Below, one piece after another: positions 126-35,656 of a stretch of 36,158 nt of DNA (within the stretch, counting starts at the first letter, position 1; each line of letters opens with the position of its first letter). Source of the stretch: Terriglobia bacterium. GTDB lineage: Bacteria; Acidobacteriota; UBA6911. The notes beneath the pieces were generated by a model. The model was not told where the DNA came from. It saw nothing but the letters and a program-made list of their open reading frames with translations, and searched no databases. Location of the stretch: the NCBI GenBank assembly GCA_020072565.1, contig JAIQGI010000055.1, positions 1-36,158 of the forward strand. The letters run 5' to 3'. The translations under genes were made by a program, and so were the position numbers.

Positions 126-481
126 ATAACGTATAGGTAGGTCACGTTTACACCTTCCCTGGTGTCATAGGGAAATCCTGGATACAACCTCAGGATCGCG
201 GCCACGCGCTCGAAATTCCCGAACACTGGGCCACCCTTGGCGTAGTCGTGATTCTTGTCATGGTGCAGCCGGGCTTCCTCGATAAGCAGGTGTAAGAAGC
301 GCGGGTGCCCATTCGGATATAAGGCACGCAACTTATCGAGCCCGGCCTGTTCCAGCGACATGGTCTCTGATGCCTCATTGGCTTGCTGAGCCTGCTCATT
401 TGCTATGTTCGGCAAGTCGATCTGCTTGCCGTGAGACTCGGCAGCGGCCTGCTGTCCTTTCCTCCTTCTACTCGTAGCCAC
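74..481 (-). CDS. Phage-type hypothetical protein, 135 aa
   Basis: This small protein ends the visible part of the phage replication module. Its start is a GTG at 479-481 with a strong GGGAGGAGG about nine bases upstream, and it overlaps the end of the helicase gene by 14 bases. The first 45 residues are polar and rich in Q and A, probably disordered. The rest is compact and holds a HHDKNHDYAKGG segment followed by GNFERVA. That pattern recalls small uncharacterised phage proteins in which K-N-x-D-Y precedes a helical domain, but I cannot name the family with confidence. Co-directional packing with the helicase supports a role in phage DNA metabolism by context only. Confidence 0.75.
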   Translation of the reverse strand: MATSRRRKGQQAAAESHGKQIDLPNIANEQAQQANEASETMSLEQAGLDKLRALYPNGHPRFLHLLIEEARLHHDKNHDYAKGGPVFGNFERVAAILRLYPGFPYDTREGVNVTYLYVIWNTRRTLIQEELHGAL

Positions 482-1823
482 TGACAGCAGCCTCCTCCCT
501 TTCAGTCATCTCGATGAACTTGTTGAATTCGCGCAAGAAGCGCAGCCTCACAGTCCCGGTCGGGCCGTTGCGCTGTTTCCCGATGATCAGCTCGGTGTCG
601 TTGGCAGGATCGTCCTCGTATAGGAAGATCACGGTATCGGCATCCTGTTCGATCGAGCCGGACTCCCGGAGATCCGATAGCTGCGGTCGGCGCCGCCCGC
701 CGGATGATTTCTCCATCGCCCGACTCAGCTGGCTGAGAGCAATAATGGGGATCTTCAGCTCCTTCGCGAGCGTCTTCAGGCCCTTCGAGATCTCGGTGAT
801 TTCCTGAACCTTGTTCTCGATCCGCCTGCCAGCTGACATCAACTGCAGGTAATCGATGACGAGCAGATCGAGCCCGTGCTGCATTTGGAGTTGACGTGCC
901 TTGGATAGCACTTCCATGACGGACACGCCGGCAGTGTCGTCGATATGCATTCGCGCTTCGGCAATCCGGGCCGCTGCCGTGGCGATCTTGCCCCAGTCGT
1001 CTCGCCCAAGGAATCCAGTGTTCAACCGGTGAGCCTCTACGTCGGCTTCGCCGGCCAGCAGCCGCTTCATCAGCTGCTCCTTGGTCATTTCCAGGCTGAA
1101 GACGCCAACGGAACGGTGGCGGCAGAGCGCGACATGCGCAGCCACGTTGAGCGCAAGCGTGGTTTTCCCCATTGCGGGGCGGGCAGCCAGGATCACGAGG
1201 TCGCCCGGCTGGAATCCCGCCGTCAGTTTGTCGAGGCACGGAAATCCGGATGGAACTCCCGTGATGGTAGACTTTTTCTCAGCCTGCTCCTCGATTGCTT
1301 TGTAGACGCGCCCCATCAGCGACGCTGTCGATTCGAACCCGCCCCGGAACGCCTGGCCTGCTATCCGAAACAGGCCCTGCTGCGCAGCGTTCAGGACCTC
1401 CTCGGGCGTATGCTCACCGGCGAAGCACTTCTGGATCGCCTCGTTCGCAACCTGAATTGTCCGCCGCAGGGCGGACTTGTCTTTGACGATCCGGGCGTAG
1501 TGCTCGACGTTGAGCGCTCGTGGCATCCCATCAGTCAGCGAGGCCAGGTACACAGCCCCGCCGGCCTTGTCCAGGGCGTCCATTCTTTCGAGTTCGTTCT
1601 TGACCGTAATGATTTCGATCGGTCGGCCTTGAACGGCCAAGACGCTCATTGCCTCAAAGATGCGACGGTGAGCTTCAGGGTAGAACTCCTCGGGCGTGAG
1701 TAGCGCGCGGGCTGTGTAGATCGCCTTGTCGTCAAGAAGCGCGACGCCCAGGACCGCTTTCTCGGCATCGAGACTGCACGGGATGGACCTGTTTTCCGAC
1801 GGCTTGAATTTGGTTACGCTCAC
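468..1823 (-). CDS. dnaB: Replicative DNA helicase, DnaB family (phage copy)
   Basis: A hexameric 5'-3' helicase that would unwind DNA at the phage fork. About 451 residues: an N-terminal DnaB domain (roughly 15-115, starting CSLDAEKAVLG) and a RecA-like C-terminal domain with Walker A ARPAMGKTT, Walker B LLVIDYLQLM and the late SQLSRAMEK and DLRESGSIEQDAD motifs, all intact. The frame stays open to 2006, but the added 61 residues read as non-coding and overlap the 69-aa gene. The GTG at 1821-1823 has GGAGG at good spacing and overlaps the upstream stop as GTGA, so I chose it. Its place next to a phage-type initiator and resolvase argues for a phage copy rather than the host dnaB. No separate loader gene is visible. 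Confidence 0.93.
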   Translation of the reverse strand: MSVTKFKPSENRSIPCSLDAEKAVLGVALLDDKAIYTARALLTPEEFYPEAHRRIFEAMSVLAVQGRPIEIITVKNELERMDALDKAGGAVYLASLTDGMPRALNVEHYARIVKDKSALRRTIQVANEAIQKCFAGEHTPEEVLNAAQQGLFRIAGQAFRGGFESTASLMGRVYKAIEEQAEKKSTITGVPSGFPCLDKLTAGFQPGDLVILAARPAMGKTTLALNVAAHVALCRHRSVGVFSLEMTKEQLMKRLLAGEADVEAHRLNTGFLGRDDWGKIATAAARIAEARMHIDDTAGVSVMEVLSKARQLQMQHGLDLLVIDYLQLMSAGRRIENKVQEITEISKGLKTLAKELKIPIIALSQLSRAMEKSSGGRRRPQLSDLRESGSIEQDADTVIFLYEDDPANDTELIIGKQRNGPTGTVRLRFLREFNKFIEMTEREEAAVSGYE

Positions 1824-2029
1824 ACAGCCTCCGATATCTTCTTCACTTCGTCCATCGAATAGGAAGCGTGCTGGTCCATTTTGTTGACTTTGCCTTCGCA
1901 GAAATGGATGGTGAAACTCCCCGTGTACTTGCGATCTATCAGCTGCCTGATCATCGCTGCGATCACCACGACAGCCTGGCCAAACCGCAGACAGTGGCGG
2001 TAGCATTTGTCTTTTTGCTCGGTTTCCAT
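1820..2029 (-). CDS. Small phage protein, 69 aa
   Basis: A short gene between the nuclease and the helicase. The ATG follows AGGGGG at normal spacing, only eight bases after the nuclease stop, and its TGA overlaps the helicase GTG, so it fits the coupled chain of the operon. The C-terminal half (around residues 25-55, with a TGSFTIHFCEGKVNKMDQH stretch) weakly recalls the small DUF2292-type beta fold, in which a glycine and a G-K-V turn lie between strands. I make no functional claim from that. It contains three cysteines but no clear metal-binding spacing. Its function is unknown; context suggests an accessory role in phage replication. Confidence 0.7.
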   Translation of the reverse strand: METEQKDKCYRHCLRFGQAVVVIAAMIRQLIDRKYTGSFTIHFCEGKVNKMDQHASYSMDEVKKISEAV

Positions 2030-2037
2030 TGAGCCCC

Positions 2038-2340
2038 CTACAGCACTTTGATTACCGGCTTGCGCGCGTAGTCCTGGTAGATCCAGACTTCCTTGGTGGC
2101 TCCCGGCGGGATGCCGTCGAACATTTGGATTTGCTCTCGTTCATGCAGCCGAGCATCCTCGTTCGTTTTCACCTGCACCAGACGGATCCCCTGGCGACCT
2201 ATCGCGATGATATCGAGAAGCCCAAGACTCCCGGCGCTCCGGGTGCAGTGATATCCAGCATCCTCGAGCGCTCGAATGGCTTTGTGTTCGTTCCGCGTAC
2301 CTTTTCGCTTGGCGTTTACTCTCTTCCGTCTCTCGCTCAT
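2038..2340 (-). CDS. Hjc-like Holliday junction resolvase / PD-(D/E)XK nuclease
   Basis: A 100-residue nuclease-fold protein. Visible motifs in order are a basic N-terminus, a KGTRNEHKAIRAL helix with the conserved glutamate, the segment HCTRSAGSLGLLDIIAI with the catalytic-type Asp, and LVQVKTNE, which matches the E-x-K strand with Gln in place of Glu. The family cleaves branched DNA, and phages carry such genes to resolve replication intermediates. The ATG at 2338-2340 follows AGGAAGG at good spacing. The frame is open upstream to a TTG at 2461-2463 that overlaps the initiator stop as TTGA, so a 141-residue form or a separate small gene in 2341-2463 cannot be excluded. It lies eight bases before the 69-aa gene. 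Confidence 0.8.
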   Translation of the reverse strand: MSERRKRVNAKRKGTRNEHKAIRALEDAGYHCTRSAGSLGLLDIIAIGRQGIRLVQVKTNEDARLHEREQIQMFDGIPPGATKEVWIYQDYARKPVIKVL

Positions 2341-2459
2341 CCTTCCGCCTTCCTCTGCCAGATAGCTGCCTCGAATCCGGCCTTGTCCGTGCAGGATGCT
2401 GTCGATGCTGGATCCAATTCGCCGCACGCCCTTCAAGCCGGGCAGGTTGCCGATCAGTA

Positions 2460-3881
2460 TCAATGCACAACACCTGCGGTTACTGGCCACTCGTCTGCGT
2501 TCAACGACTGCAGAGGTGGTTTCAACCGCGGCCAAGATTGCGGGATCGTCTTGGCTTTCCCGGCAGGGCATGAGCAGCGGAAATTCACAATGCGCCATTC
2601 CTTGCTCGGATACTCGGCGTCTAGGCTTACGATCCGCCGGGGATCCGACAGCTTGTAGAAGGGAACTACCGGATCATCCGGTGCCGGCTCGCTGCCAGGA
2701 GCGGCCTTGGTCCGAACATGGAGGCGCCCATCGCCTTGGCAAATCTCGCAATGGCTCCAGTCGAACTTGTGCTCAGGAGTCGGCGGCGTAGCGGTATTGG
2801 CACCCTGGGCTGGCTGGATTGGATTTATGGCGCCGCGTCCCTTGTCCTGCTCCCTGGAAAGCCAGATAGTGATAAATCGCAGAATTCCTTTGGGCGTTTT
2901 CCGGCGGTTGGGGTTGGCTATGCACCAAGCCCGCATTTTCCTGAGCTCCTGCATGACATCAACAGCCGGGAAGAGATTGGACCACTCCGAAATATCTGCC
3001 TGGGTGATGTTGCGTTCGTTGCCGCTAACAAGTGGAATCGAGATGACGGTGGGCGAGGACGCTTTGCGCTCCGAGCATACATCTCCTTCCTTTCCTTTCC
3101 CTTCCTTTCCCTTCCCTTCCCCTTGAGCGCTATCAAGTGGCGTGGGGCACGCGTCAGCCACGCGTGAATTTGGGTGGAATGCCCCAAGATCGCTGTCCAG
3201 CGTCTTGTTTTCGGCTGCTTCATCCCGTCGCGTGCCGCACACGTCAGAAACGCGTGAAGCACGCGTGAACCACGCGCCGAGTATCGAAGCGGCTTCCTCG
3301 CTGCACCGGAACCAATCCCCGTGGTTGCGATGGCCGATGAGCGCCCGATATATTTCAGCTTCCAGGTTTTTGTCGCCCAGGATGTAATCAGCCAACTCGA
3401 TAGGGCACGCCGACATCGCCCGGATGTCTCTCAGCTTGCCGTCAATGTTGCGCGACCTGCCAATCTTGAACGCCTTCGCGTGCGGAGAAACGATAAGGTA
3501 AACGAATGTCTTTCCGTCCGGAATCCCTGGCTGCACTTCGGGGCCATTCGGACCAGGAAGCTTGCTGTCCATTTCCCTGTTGTTAATCGCTTGATGTTCC
3601 GCGAATGTTGGGATAGCCCCGTAGGGCTTCCCTCCAACGAAGAATTTGAAGATAAAGCCAGCCGCGTGCAACCCATCCAGGACCTCCTCAAAATCCAGTT
3701 CGTCGTACGGCAGGACGTCGAGCTTGATCTCGTTCGGACGCCACTTGAAGCGCCCCTCCCGGTCGGCCACGGTAAAAAGCCCAATGAATGCCAGTCTGAG
3801 CGGGAGCCCAGACTCCCTCTCGGCCTGGTACAACTCCTCATGCTTGAACAGCTCTGGTTTGACCGTTCTGATGCGAGCCAT
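2460..3881 (-). CDS. Phage replication initiator with embedded T5orf172/GIY-YIG-like domain
   Basis: A 473-residue modular protein. Residues 1-105 (starting MARIRTVKPELFKHEELY) resemble the winged-helix N-terminus of phage replication proteins. Residues about 124-204 (FVYLIVSPHAKAFKIGRS, then a LEAEIYRAL helix and HGDWFR) match the T5orf172/MUG113 branch of the GIY-YIG superfamily. A linker (205-290) includes low-complexity GEGKGKEGKGKEG. Residues about 298-347 (SEWSNLFPAVDV to FITIWLSREQD) match the conserved C-terminal segment of phage replisome organisers. A cysteine cluster (C378, C381, C435, C437) may bind zinc. The ATG at 3879-3881 has GGAGG and gives the usual family start; an in-frame ATG at 3918-3920 also has GGAGG. 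Family resemblance suggests origin binding and helicase recruitment; this is inferred. Confidence 0.85.
   Translation of the reverse strand: MARIRTVKPELFKHEELYQAERESGLPLRLAFIGLFTVADREGRFKWRPNEIKLDVLPYDELDFEEVLDGLHAAGFIFKFFVGGKPYGAIPTFAEHQAINNREMDSKLPGPNGPEVQPGIPDGKTFVYLIVSPHAKAFKIGRSRNIDGKLRDIRAMSACPIELADYILGDKNLEAEIYRALIGHRNHGDWFRCSEEAASILGAWFTRASRVSDVCGTRRDEAAENKTLDSDLGAFHPNSRVADACPTPLDSAQGEGKGKEGKGKEGDVCSERKASSPTVISIPLVSGNERNITQADISEWSNLFPAVDVMQELRKMRAWCIANPNRRKTPKGILRFITIWLSREQDKGRGAINPIQPAQGANTATPPTPEHKFDWSHCEICQGDGRLHVRTKAAPGSEPAPDDPVVPFYKLSDPRRIVSLDAEYPSKEWRIVNFRCSCPAGKAKTIPQSWPRLKPPLQSLNADEWPVTAGVVH
3083..3124 (-). repeat. 42-nt homopurine tract inside the initiator gene
   Basis: The minus strand is purine only for 42 bases, built of GGGAAAGGAA-like units, and encodes the GEGKGKEGKGKEG linker. 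It lies just downstream of the second iteron-like cluster. Such tracts can adopt unusual DNA structures, slip in replication, or mark the asymmetric part of an origin. Confidence 0.85.
3136..3280 (-). repeat. Two clusters of 11-bp iteron-like repeats, candidate phage origin
   Basis: On the minus strand, five consecutive 11-base units occupy 3280-3226 and three more occupy 3168-3136. The best units read TTCACGCGTGC, TTCACGCGTTT, TTCACGCGTGG and CTGACGCGTGC; the outer units are degenerate. Four contain the exact palindromic core ACGCGT. One helical turn per unit, tandem orientation and position within an initiator gene, followed by a homopurine tract, resemble the layout of the lambda origin inside gene O. 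Because 11 is not a multiple of 3, the repeated DNA encodes different residues in each unit, so selection on the protein repeat does not readily explain it. Origin function is inferred. Confidence 0.55.
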
Positions 3882-4165: not shown

Positions 4166-4190
4166 AATTTGTCAGAAATTTGTCAGACAA
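4166..4190. promoter_or_regulatory. Exact 11-bp tandem repeat with overlapping palindrome
   Basis: AATTTGTCAGA occurs twice without a gap (4166-4176 and 4177-4187). The second copy runs into TTGTCAGACAA (4180-4190), a perfect palindrome around one central base. This looks like a protein-binding site upstream of the phage operon. The protein is unknown. Confidence 0.45.
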
Positions 4191-6048: not shown

Positions 6049-7374
6049 CTAGCGCCTGCGGGGAGGCTTGGTACGCTGCCGGATACGTATCGGCGTGCCG
6101 CCGAATCCGAACCGTTCCCGGATCTGGTTGATGAGGAAGCGTTCGGTCGAAAAGTGCAGCGGTTCGCGGCCCGTCGTAAACACCACGAAGGTGGGCGGGG
6201 AGGAGCGTGCCTGCGTGATGTAGCGTATGTTCAGCTTTTGCCCGGGATTACTCGAAGCCCATTTCTCGGTCAAATCCGGCGCAAATATATTGTTCAACAA
6301 CCCGGTCGGGACGTGGATTTTCCGGGCCTCCGAAGCCTGCTGGATCATATCGAAGAGCTTCGAGACGCGCTGCCCCGTCAGGGCGGAAACGGTCAGGACG
6401 GGAGCGTAGGCCAGATACTTCATGCGCCGGCGAATCGCCTCCGTGAACTTCTCGACGATGTGCTCGTGCTTCTCGACCTTGTCCCACTTGTTGAGCACGA
6501 TGAGGACGGAACAACCCGACTCCTCGGCGTAACCGCCGATCGCCGCGTCGAGCTTGGTTACGCCTTCCTCGGCGTCCAGTACCAGGAGCGCCACCTCTGC
6601 ATACTCCAGGTTTTTGCGCGCCATTACGACGCTGACCTTCTCGGTCCGGCCCTCGGTCCGGCCCTTGCGCCGGATGCCCGCCGTGTCGATGATCCGGTAG
6701 CGGATACCATCGCGGATCAGCAGCGTGTCCACGGCATCCCGGGTCGTTCCCGGAATCTCGCTCACAATCGTCCGTTCCATACCAAGCAGGCGGTTTACCA
6801 GCGCCGACTTTCCCACATTCGGGCGCCCGACCACGGCGACGGCAATCTCCTCCGCAGGCGCCGGTGCCGGTTCGAGAGAACCATCACCGGCGCGCGCGGC
6901 GATCGCATCGAGCAATTCTCCAATGCCCCGCCCATGCTCCGCCGAGACGGCGAACAGCTCTTCCGCGCCCCAGGCGTAAAACGCCGCCGCTTCGGCTTCG
7001 AGCGCGGGCACGTCGATCTTGTTTACGACAACCCAGATCGGCTTTCCCGACCGGCGCAAGATGGGGAGCAGCTGCTCATCCGGCGCCGTCACGCCCGCGC
7101 GGCCATCCACAAGGAGCAGCAGTAGACTCGATTCGCGGATGGCCTTCTCGACCTGTTCGAGGATTTTCCGCGGAATCATGTCCTGCACGTCCGGGATCGC
7201 GCCACCGGTGTCCAGGATTTCAAAGGTCCGGCCGGCCCACGTGGCCGTTCCATAGATGCGGTCGCGCGTGATGCCCGGCTCGTCGCCGACAATCGCCTTG
7301 CGCGTGCCGCACAGCCGGTTGAAAAGAGTGGACTTGCCGACATTGGGCCTGCCGACGATGGCTACTCGAAACAT
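6049..7374 (-). CDS. der: Ribosome-associated GTPase Der (EngA)
   Basis: Der has two tandem GTPase domains and helps assemble the 50S subunit. In the 441 residues, G domain 1 has GRPNVGKST (8-16), DTGG and NKID. G domain 2 has GRPNVGKSA from residue 183, then DTAGIRRKG and NKWD. The C-terminal KH-like domain ends in a basic PIRIRQRTKPPRRR tail. The ATG at 7372-7374 has GGAG about ten bases upstream and gives the normal family start. An open frame continues to 7704 but runs through an intergenic repeat, so the extension is rejected. Confidence 0.97.
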   Translation of the reverse strand: MFRVAIVGRPNVGKSTLFNRLCGTRKAIVGDEPGITRDRIYGTATWAGRTFEILDTGGAIPDVQDMIPRKILEQVEKAIRESSLLLLLVDGRAGVTAPDEQLLPILRRSGKPIWVVVNKIDVPALEAEAAAFYAWGAEELFAVSAEHGRGIGELLDAIAARAGDGSLEPAPAPAEEIAVAVVGRPNVGKSALVNRLLGMERTIVSEIPGTTRDAVDTLLIRDGIRYRIIDTAGIRRKGRTEGRTEKVSVVMARKNLEYAEVALLVLDAEEGVTKLDAAIGGYAEESGCSVLIVLNKWDKVEKHEHIVEKFTEAIRRRMKYLAYAPVLTVSALTGQRVSKLFDMIQQASEARKIHVPTGLLNNIFAPDLTEKWASSNPGQKLNIRYITQARSSPPTFVVFTTGREPLHFSTERFLINQIRERFGFGGTPIRIRQRTKPPRRR

Positions 7375-19879: not shown

Positions 19880-19931
19880 CGCAAAATCCAGAATCCAAAA
19901 TCCAAAATCGAAAGTGATTTTCAGACTTTCG
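19880..19931. repeat. GATTTTGG-family repeat (copy c) with hairpin over the ribA stop
   Basis: AATCC-AAAATCC units run from about 19880 to 19909. CGAAAGT and ACTTTCG (19909-19915 and 19925-19931) form a 7-bp stem with the ribA stop codon in the loop. On the minus strand the stem is followed by ATTTTGGATTTTGG, a weak U-rich tail. It may end the ribosomal-ribA transcript. Confidence 0.45.
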
Positions 19932-30521: not shown

Positions 30522-30612
30522 AATTTTGGATTCTGGATTTGTGATTTTGGATTTTGGGGCAGTCGGCTGGTTGCCTTTCAATCCAAAATCTAAAATCCAA
30601 AATCCAAAATCC
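30522..30612. repeat. GATTTTGG-family inverted repeat element (copy d), rpsQ-rplN gap
   Basis: The left arm (GATTTTGGATTTTGG and related units, 30522-30559) is inverted at 30579-30612 (CAATCCAAAATC and related). Together they nearly fill the gap between two ribosomal genes. The right edge lies six bases from the rpsQ stop. Confidence 0.7.
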
Positions 30613-35583: not shown

Positions 35584-35656
35584 GGATTTTGGATCTGCGA
35601 TTTTGGATTTGAAACGACGGGAAAAATCCAAAATCTAAAATCCAAAATCTAAAATT
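35584..35656. repeat. GATTTTGG-family inverted repeat element (copy e), rpsJ-rplC gap
   Basis: GATTTTGGATCTGCGATTTT and following bases (35584-35610) are inverted as AATCCAAAATCTAAAATCC-like units (35622-35656). It occupies most of the space between rpsJ and rplC. It has the same architecture as copy d in the rpsQ-rplN gap. Confidence 0.7.

Follow-up and report, generated by a model that had tools for sequence, protein, structure and literature searches.

Phased 11-bp repeats and an adjoining homopurine tract lie in the middle of a replication initiator gene, and this segment is very probably the replication origin of a prophage, of a lambda-like kind with iterons embedded in its own initiator gene, judging from sequence comparison. 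The arrangement recurs in phages of several phyla with conservation at the DNA level, which bears out the original prediction of a lambda-like architecture at this place.

Repeats and purine tract within the initiator gene

The window (the whole 36,158-nucleotide stretch of DNA that was analysed) carries the initiator gene to the left of a tRNA-Pro gene, with the host genes SurE, Der and RecG to the right. Because of this order, the left part of the window looks like a prophage interrupted by the contig start. The encoded protein belongs with the phrog_16167 phage replication initiation proteins through a homologous N-terminal domain, and a phage DnaB helicase gene lies two genes downstream (Table 1). 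The true start of the Holliday-junction-resolvase-like ORF is probably near 2342. The C-terminal module is the probable helicase- or primosome-recruiting part; this is supported by the DnaA_N (L273, L276) and DnaT (L256) domains found in the C-terminal half of relatives.

Table 1. Coordinates of features at the putative origin and in its neighbourhood
Feature	Position	Strand	Details
DnaB-family replicative helicase	468..2006	(-)	Pfam DnaB_C E 1e-96; downstream of initiator, same direction
Holliday-junction-resolvase-like ORF	2038..2598	(-)	Pfam Hjc E 9.5e-4 (just under cut-off); phrog_6591
Replication initiator gene	2460..3881	(-)	473 aa, start MARIRTVKPELF...; phrog_16167 'replication initiation protein' E 2e-41, residues 1-114
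C-terminal module, codons 264-346	2844..3092	(-)	phrog_1032 replication initiation protein, residues 264-346, E 1.6e-4
Homopurine tract, 43 nt	3082..3124	(-)	candidate strand-asymmetric element for opening/loading; units GGGAA/GGAAA
Iteron cluster 2, three 11-mers	3136..3168	(-)	TTCACGCGTGG, CTGACGCGTGC, CCCACGCCACT; cores ACGCGT, ACGCGT, ACGCCA
Iteron cluster 1, five 11-mers	3226..3280	(-)	TCGGCGCGTGG, TTCACGCGTGC, TTCACGCGTTT, CTGACGTGTGC, GGCACGCGACG; cores GCGCGT, ACGCGT, ACGCGT, ACGTGT, ACGCGA
GIY-YIG (MUG113/T5orf172) domain	3288..3506	(-)	Pfam MUG113 E 5.6e-6, T5orf172 E 3.4e-4, both above gathering cut-off; inserted between winged helix and repeats
Winged-helix DNA-binding domain, codons 1-112	3546..3881	(-)	AlphaFold2 model pLDDT 92.9; PDB fold matches
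Predicted recognition helix, codons 64-74	3660..3692	(-)	three-unit array site in 88 relatives; none here (FEEVLDGLHAA)

The AlphaFold2 model of the N-terminal domain has helices at residues 28-35, 49-56 and 64-73 and wing strands at 78-82/85-89. In this model, residues 64-73 make up helix three of a winged-helix fold, with the wing next in the chain, and are the predicted recognition helix. Structure matches in the PDB were winged-helix proteins, including the RepA_N initiators 4pt7 and 5kbj and the DnaD N-terminal domain 2v79, at Z scores of 5.4-6, which at Z < 8 denote fold similarity only. A PDB sequence search with the N-terminal profile returned no credible relative. Beyond this domain the full-length model was poor (pLDDT 60): the GIY-YIG part was not resolved and the repeat-coded linker (residues 207-275) was of low confidence.

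We observed eight units in the initiator frame, in two clusters (5+3) at the predicted coordinates and with 11-bp spacing throughout. A recount gave four exact ACGCGT cores, as first reported; three further cores match at 5/6 positions and the last at 4/6. The gene runs from the winged helix through the inserted GIY-YIG domain to cluster 1, cluster 2 and the purine tract. This tract had been described as 42 nt long; it is present downstream of the repeats and measures 43 nt, and it is the only homopurine or homopyrimidine run of at least 25 nt in the window. Under a first-order Markov null of the 36-kb window, 0.005 three-unit arrays were expected and none of four or more units arose in 200 runs, compared with one observed array of five. 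Seven more ACGCGT sites occur in the window, all single and scattered. Each three-unit stretch spans all three codon phases, so a peptide repeat cannot explain the arrays, in agreement with the initial view that an 11-bp period is unlikely to be kept for the protein.

Two other repeats were observed in the window. A perfect 11-bp tandem, AATTTGTCAGA, lies at 4166-4187 between the tRNA-Pro gene and the initiator and could be an integrase arm site or an operator. Tandem heptamers of one kind (CAAAATC / AATCCAA / AAAATCC and complement) occur in the host part at 19882-19913, 30523-30557, 30580-30612 and 35623-35655.

Conservation of the element among relatives

We compared 157 non-redundant genes, ascertained by protein. 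They came from searching viral contigs and bacterial genomes with N-terminal profiles, from earlier relatives and from eight genes of named phages. An array was counted where at least three ACGCGT-like units (5/6 or better) followed one another at 11 bp in the linker, and the null consisted of the same proteins synonymously re-encoded with pooled codon usage. Linker arrays were present in 104 of the 157 relatives, compared with a mean of 8.2 (maximum 15) after re-encoding; these relatives, drawn from the matches listed, share ancestry and are not independent. Homopurine tracts of at least 20 nt were present in 131 of 157 genes, compared with 29.5 (maximum 42) after re-encoding. When nine other hexamers were counted at eight periods as a control, a sizeable count was obtained only for CACGTG, which is itself 5/6-related to the core. 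These data show that the 11-mers are conserved at the DNA level more than at the codon level, the comparison that the original prediction had proposed. It had also named homologues with the peptide kept and the 11-mers lost as contrary evidence; none were seen, and synonymous sites in the N-terminal part were free except in the array. In some relatives the linker has just two units, or zero.

A peptide-based search of viral contigs gave 16 relatives with CACGCGT-N4 repeats at the matching place, followed by CAAGGGGAAGGGAA.... Amino acids flanking the cores differ among them, as do the entire C-terminal halves. A scan for the purine tract found 15 loci, all on contigs of these 16 relatives, partly by construction as one peptide pattern lay in the tract. 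We also scanned DNA for ACGCGT-type 11-mers in a protein-blind way, using neither a protein nor a purine criterion. This gave at least 120 loci, compared with 2 for a scrambled palindromic hexamer and 5 for a 10-bp period; among the matches listed, most lay in ORFs starting M(A)RIRT(I/V)KPE.. and leading into the GGGAAGGGAA tract. Linker arrays were found in bacterial genomes of Pseudomonadota, Acidobacteriota, Binatota, Planctomycetota and Bacteroidota, and the element is also present in named isolated phages, among them Vibrio phage VvAW1 and Vibrio phage 1.131.O.

We looked for an AT-rich unwinding element and found none in the tracts of the relatives, which average about 52% GC. A G-quadruplex was rejected as the conserved feature of the tract, as a G4 motif is present in just 57 of 131 tracts. 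Four relatives (L124, L128, L262 and L161, which is phage Mx8) have C-poor short repeats (GAACA, GGAACA, GGAAAT, GGAGAT) in place of the tract. Because of these, what is conserved may be a strand of G/A-rich short repeats instead of pure purine.

The repeats and tract are confined to this initiator gene family: 192 arrays of at least three units lie inside initiator genes (135 kb) and 3 in the surrounding 1,117 kb. This distribution bears on whether the arrays are operators through which the initiator represses its own transcription or forms a roadblock, with the origin elsewhere. Initiators of iteron replicons often autoregulate, and the arrays lie within coding sequence and in relatives also near the gene start (nt 180-210). 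However, an operator would not leave upstream regions almost free of arrays, nor does it need the purine tract to which the downstream array is tied (median 14 nt past the array core). We therefore regard operator function as improbable and favour an origin.

Recognition-helix codons and repeat classes

The N-terminal coding part of the 157-gene set was run as a control count, and it contained arrays in 89 genes, 88 of them at gene nt 180-210. This second array, which the original prediction had not covered, encodes S-R-V-L-D-A-L-x-T-R-G as TCA CGC GTG CTY GAC GCG TTR NNN ACG CGT GG. We assessed codon choice in 66 genes picked by peptide motif alone and not by the presence of an array. Ser was TCA in 65 (16% elsewhere), Ala was GCG in 66 (26% elsewhere), Leu was TTR in 66 and Arg was CGT in 59/61 (14% elsewhere). 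The ratio of observed to expected synonymous identity was ~1 across the N-terminal domain and reached 4.5 at codons 64-74 (p = 3e-7, Mann-Whitney) in a set chosen by array presence; the peptide-chosen subset agrees with this result. When DNA was scanned for the helix array, the matches listed comprised 118 loci; 117 of these lay in this helix and frame, and 114 had linker units downstream.

Base frequencies agree between helix and linker units ([C/G]ACGCGT, with G, C or T usually next). The helix array always occurred with at least two linker units (88 to 0), while 28 genes had linker units only and 40 had neither; this co-occurrence is weakened because the relatives share ancestry. In a tree-based analysis of covariation, gain or loss of the helix and linker arrays went in the same direction in 4/4 informative pairs, which is not significant (p = 0.125). 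Extra linker units did not significantly offset a missing helix array (p = 0.26). Exact helical phasing between the two arrays was weak among these related sequences (resultant 0.59 at 11 bp and 0.42 at 10.5; spacing 157-239 nt). ACGCGT linkers also occur with other helix peptides, such as FEEVLDGLHAAG of the window protein, and the helix peptide is thus not required for the ACGCGT repeat class.

The elements follow a fixed order of an optional upstream array, a downstream array and the purine tract, and in most close relatives the upstream array is within the recognition-helix codons. The window gene has no helix array. Its cluster 2 adjoins the purine tract, which is the position of the linker array in relatives, and the five-unit cluster behind the GIY-YIG domain is its second array. 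This layout is in keeping with the two-array plan, except that the upstream array lies behind the nuclease domain and not in the helix codons.

The same genome carries a paralogous initiator (C17:118236-119285; L004 5237-6283) without a GIY-YIG domain and without a helix array. Residues 1-58 are 84% identical to the window protein, compared with 38% for the helix plus wing. The paralogue keeps codons 1-58, the purine tract and the C-terminal half and differs in recognition helix, wing and repeats, which are of the AATGCAC/GCATGCACGTGCA and GCACGTGCA/ATGCAC types, a second iteron class in this genome that was also absent from the original prediction. The helix and repeats have been replaced jointly, as expected if protein and site are swapped together, and the two genes are possibly compatible prophage replicons in one host. 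At the DNA level, homology between them breaks off immediately ahead of the helix codons and is restored, at 86%, within the purine tract. Such borders could mean that the conserved DNA is kept for homologous exchange of initiator modules and not for initiator binding. Exchange, however, would require neither that one hexamer recur strictly every 11 bp nor that the same tract be preceded by different repeat classes, and we consider it very unlikely as the explanation.

The repeats of the paralogue are of class B. Other class-B relatives have GCACGTGC arrays before the same tract, and 19 of 22 loci in a class-B pattern scan were such initiators; in several of these an HNH domain is flanked by an array on either side. 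Class-B repeats also lie in the helix codons of L197 and in a wing insertion of L292. The additional types GGGGAAACAAC, GTGCGTACC and CCCGGGCAT were found at this position as well. The more distant initiators of phages IFTN1, JBD44, F10 and HK639 (L164-L167) have CTGATTC-type linker repeats with a PDSLIPDS peptide, possibly yet another origin class.

Overall, these data suggest that across a wide range of phage initiators the recognition helix is probably written in its expected target DNA. Codons 64-74 would hold a three-unit array with frozen synonymous sites, as part of a bipartite origin made of helix array, linker array and homopurine tract. Helix, wing and repeats would travel between phages as one specificity cassette, giving rise to replicon compatibility classes.

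Proposed origin function and comparison with known systems

If the segment is an origin, the N-terminal winged-helix domain would bind the phased [C/G]ACGCGT 11-mers of both clusters, with one DNA turn per unit. The resulting nucleoprotein array would act on the adjoining homopurine tract, whose strand asymmetry could define the strand to be opened or captured, and the C-terminal module would bring in the phage DnaB helicase. Cumulative GC skew of phage VvAW1 was uninformative on the position of the origin, as the detrended minimum, ~1.2 kb from the site, is confounded by gene direction. The VvAW1 genome (L332) has three exact ACGCGT-N5-ACGCGT pairs outside the initiator gene, at 6961, 20084 and 25522 (~0.002 expected with uniform base use), which are possible dispersed initiator-binding sites.

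In the class-B initiators L334, L337, L341, L344 and L351, HNH domains lie between two arrays, a recurrent nuclease insertion site beside the putative origin. The window has its T5orf172/MUG113 domain. As part of the initiator, a homing or origin-directed nuclease might bind or cut the repeats, as does Odn (ICP1 Gp88) at satellite origins, where an iteron-binding initiator-type domain is coupled to a T5orf172 nuclease and iterons are required to cut (PMC8263062). There is little chance that the arrays serve the nuclease, since most relatives have arrays without any nuclease insert. The window domain also reads DGKLRDIRA, with Lys at the position taken in related inserts (L226, phage Mx8) by the presumed catalytic Arg (Glu is retained by eye), which makes its activity doubtful. 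The domain may be inactive and is likely an accessory to the initiator.

Selection on a peptide or on a GEGKGKE linker that the repeats merely mirror has next to no probability and is already refuted for the arrays: relatives do share similar linker peptides (TREARVDDA..TPL, QGEGKGKEGK), but every array spans all codon phases (linker array starts 50/35/19), synonymous re-encoding abolishes the arrays and most purine tracts, and Gly is GGG/GGA in 641/731 codons near the tract compared with 810/2045 elsewhere.

With an origin of this type, many phage and prophage origins, most of them lacking annotation, could be predicted from sequence together with their matching initiators, across at least five bacterial phyla. 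Initiator specificity would become open to direct tests: the pair of prophages in this genome offers a swap made by nature, and a single purine tract is common to several repeat classes. If the reading of the helix array is true, the coding is dual in an unusual way, since the binding site of a DNA-binding protein would also encode that protein's recognition helix. That the homopurine tract is GC-rich also casts doubt on the idea that origins of this sort can open only where DNA is AT-rich.

As far as we found in the open-access literature, this widespread origin type is undescribed: a search of open-access text for a published description brought up only lambda, P1, RepA_N and plasmid systems, and the VvAW1 genome paper mentions no replication origin or repeats. 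For P1 RepL/oriL, an origin inside the initiator gene is postulated, and synonymous substitutions in a region within repL lower replication (PMC9948254). The P1 element is AT-rich, unlike the origin proposed here, and the abstract describes no such 11-mer arrays (PMC9948254).

The RepA_N initiators (pSK41, pTZ2162, PLE RepA) have a similar winged-helix N-terminal fold (4pt7, 5kbj), although the window protein had no match to Pfam RepA_N at E 0.01 and the similarity is one of fold only. They recognize iterons and have variable C-terminal domains (PMC7145576), and recognition is predicted for the initiator described here. In contrast, RepA_N iterons are mostly semi-palindromic around a poly-A tract, and the PLE origin lies in a non-coding region. 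Like Odn, the window initiator joins a T5orf172 domain to a domain with iteron binding, which is putative here. However, Odn is a separate anti-satellite nuclease, whereas the domain here is inserted into the initiator of the phage itself and lacks the usual Arg.

The closest parallel in layout is with lambda and the Stx phages, whose gene O contains iterons together with an AT-rich, strand-asymmetric tract (PMC7466680, PMC5043065). The likeness to lambda proposed at the outset holds for the architecture and does not extend to the long inverted repeats or the AT-rich tract. The window protein had no match to a phage-O Pfam family, and the C-terminal half of one relative gave a match to phrog_18020 'replication initiation O-like' (E = 1e-6). 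The units here are 11 bp with a 6-bp core, whereas those of lambda are long inverted repeats, and the tract is ~52% GC where that of lambda is AT-rich. Two further differences are the DnaB gene downstream and the additional array that most close relatives have in their recognition-helix codons. As in lambda, the putative origin lies in the middle of the initiator gene, between the DNA-binding and C-terminal parts, with iterons followed by a region that is nearly all purine on one strand (PMC5043065, PMC7466680), and in both systems the number of iterons differs between relatives.
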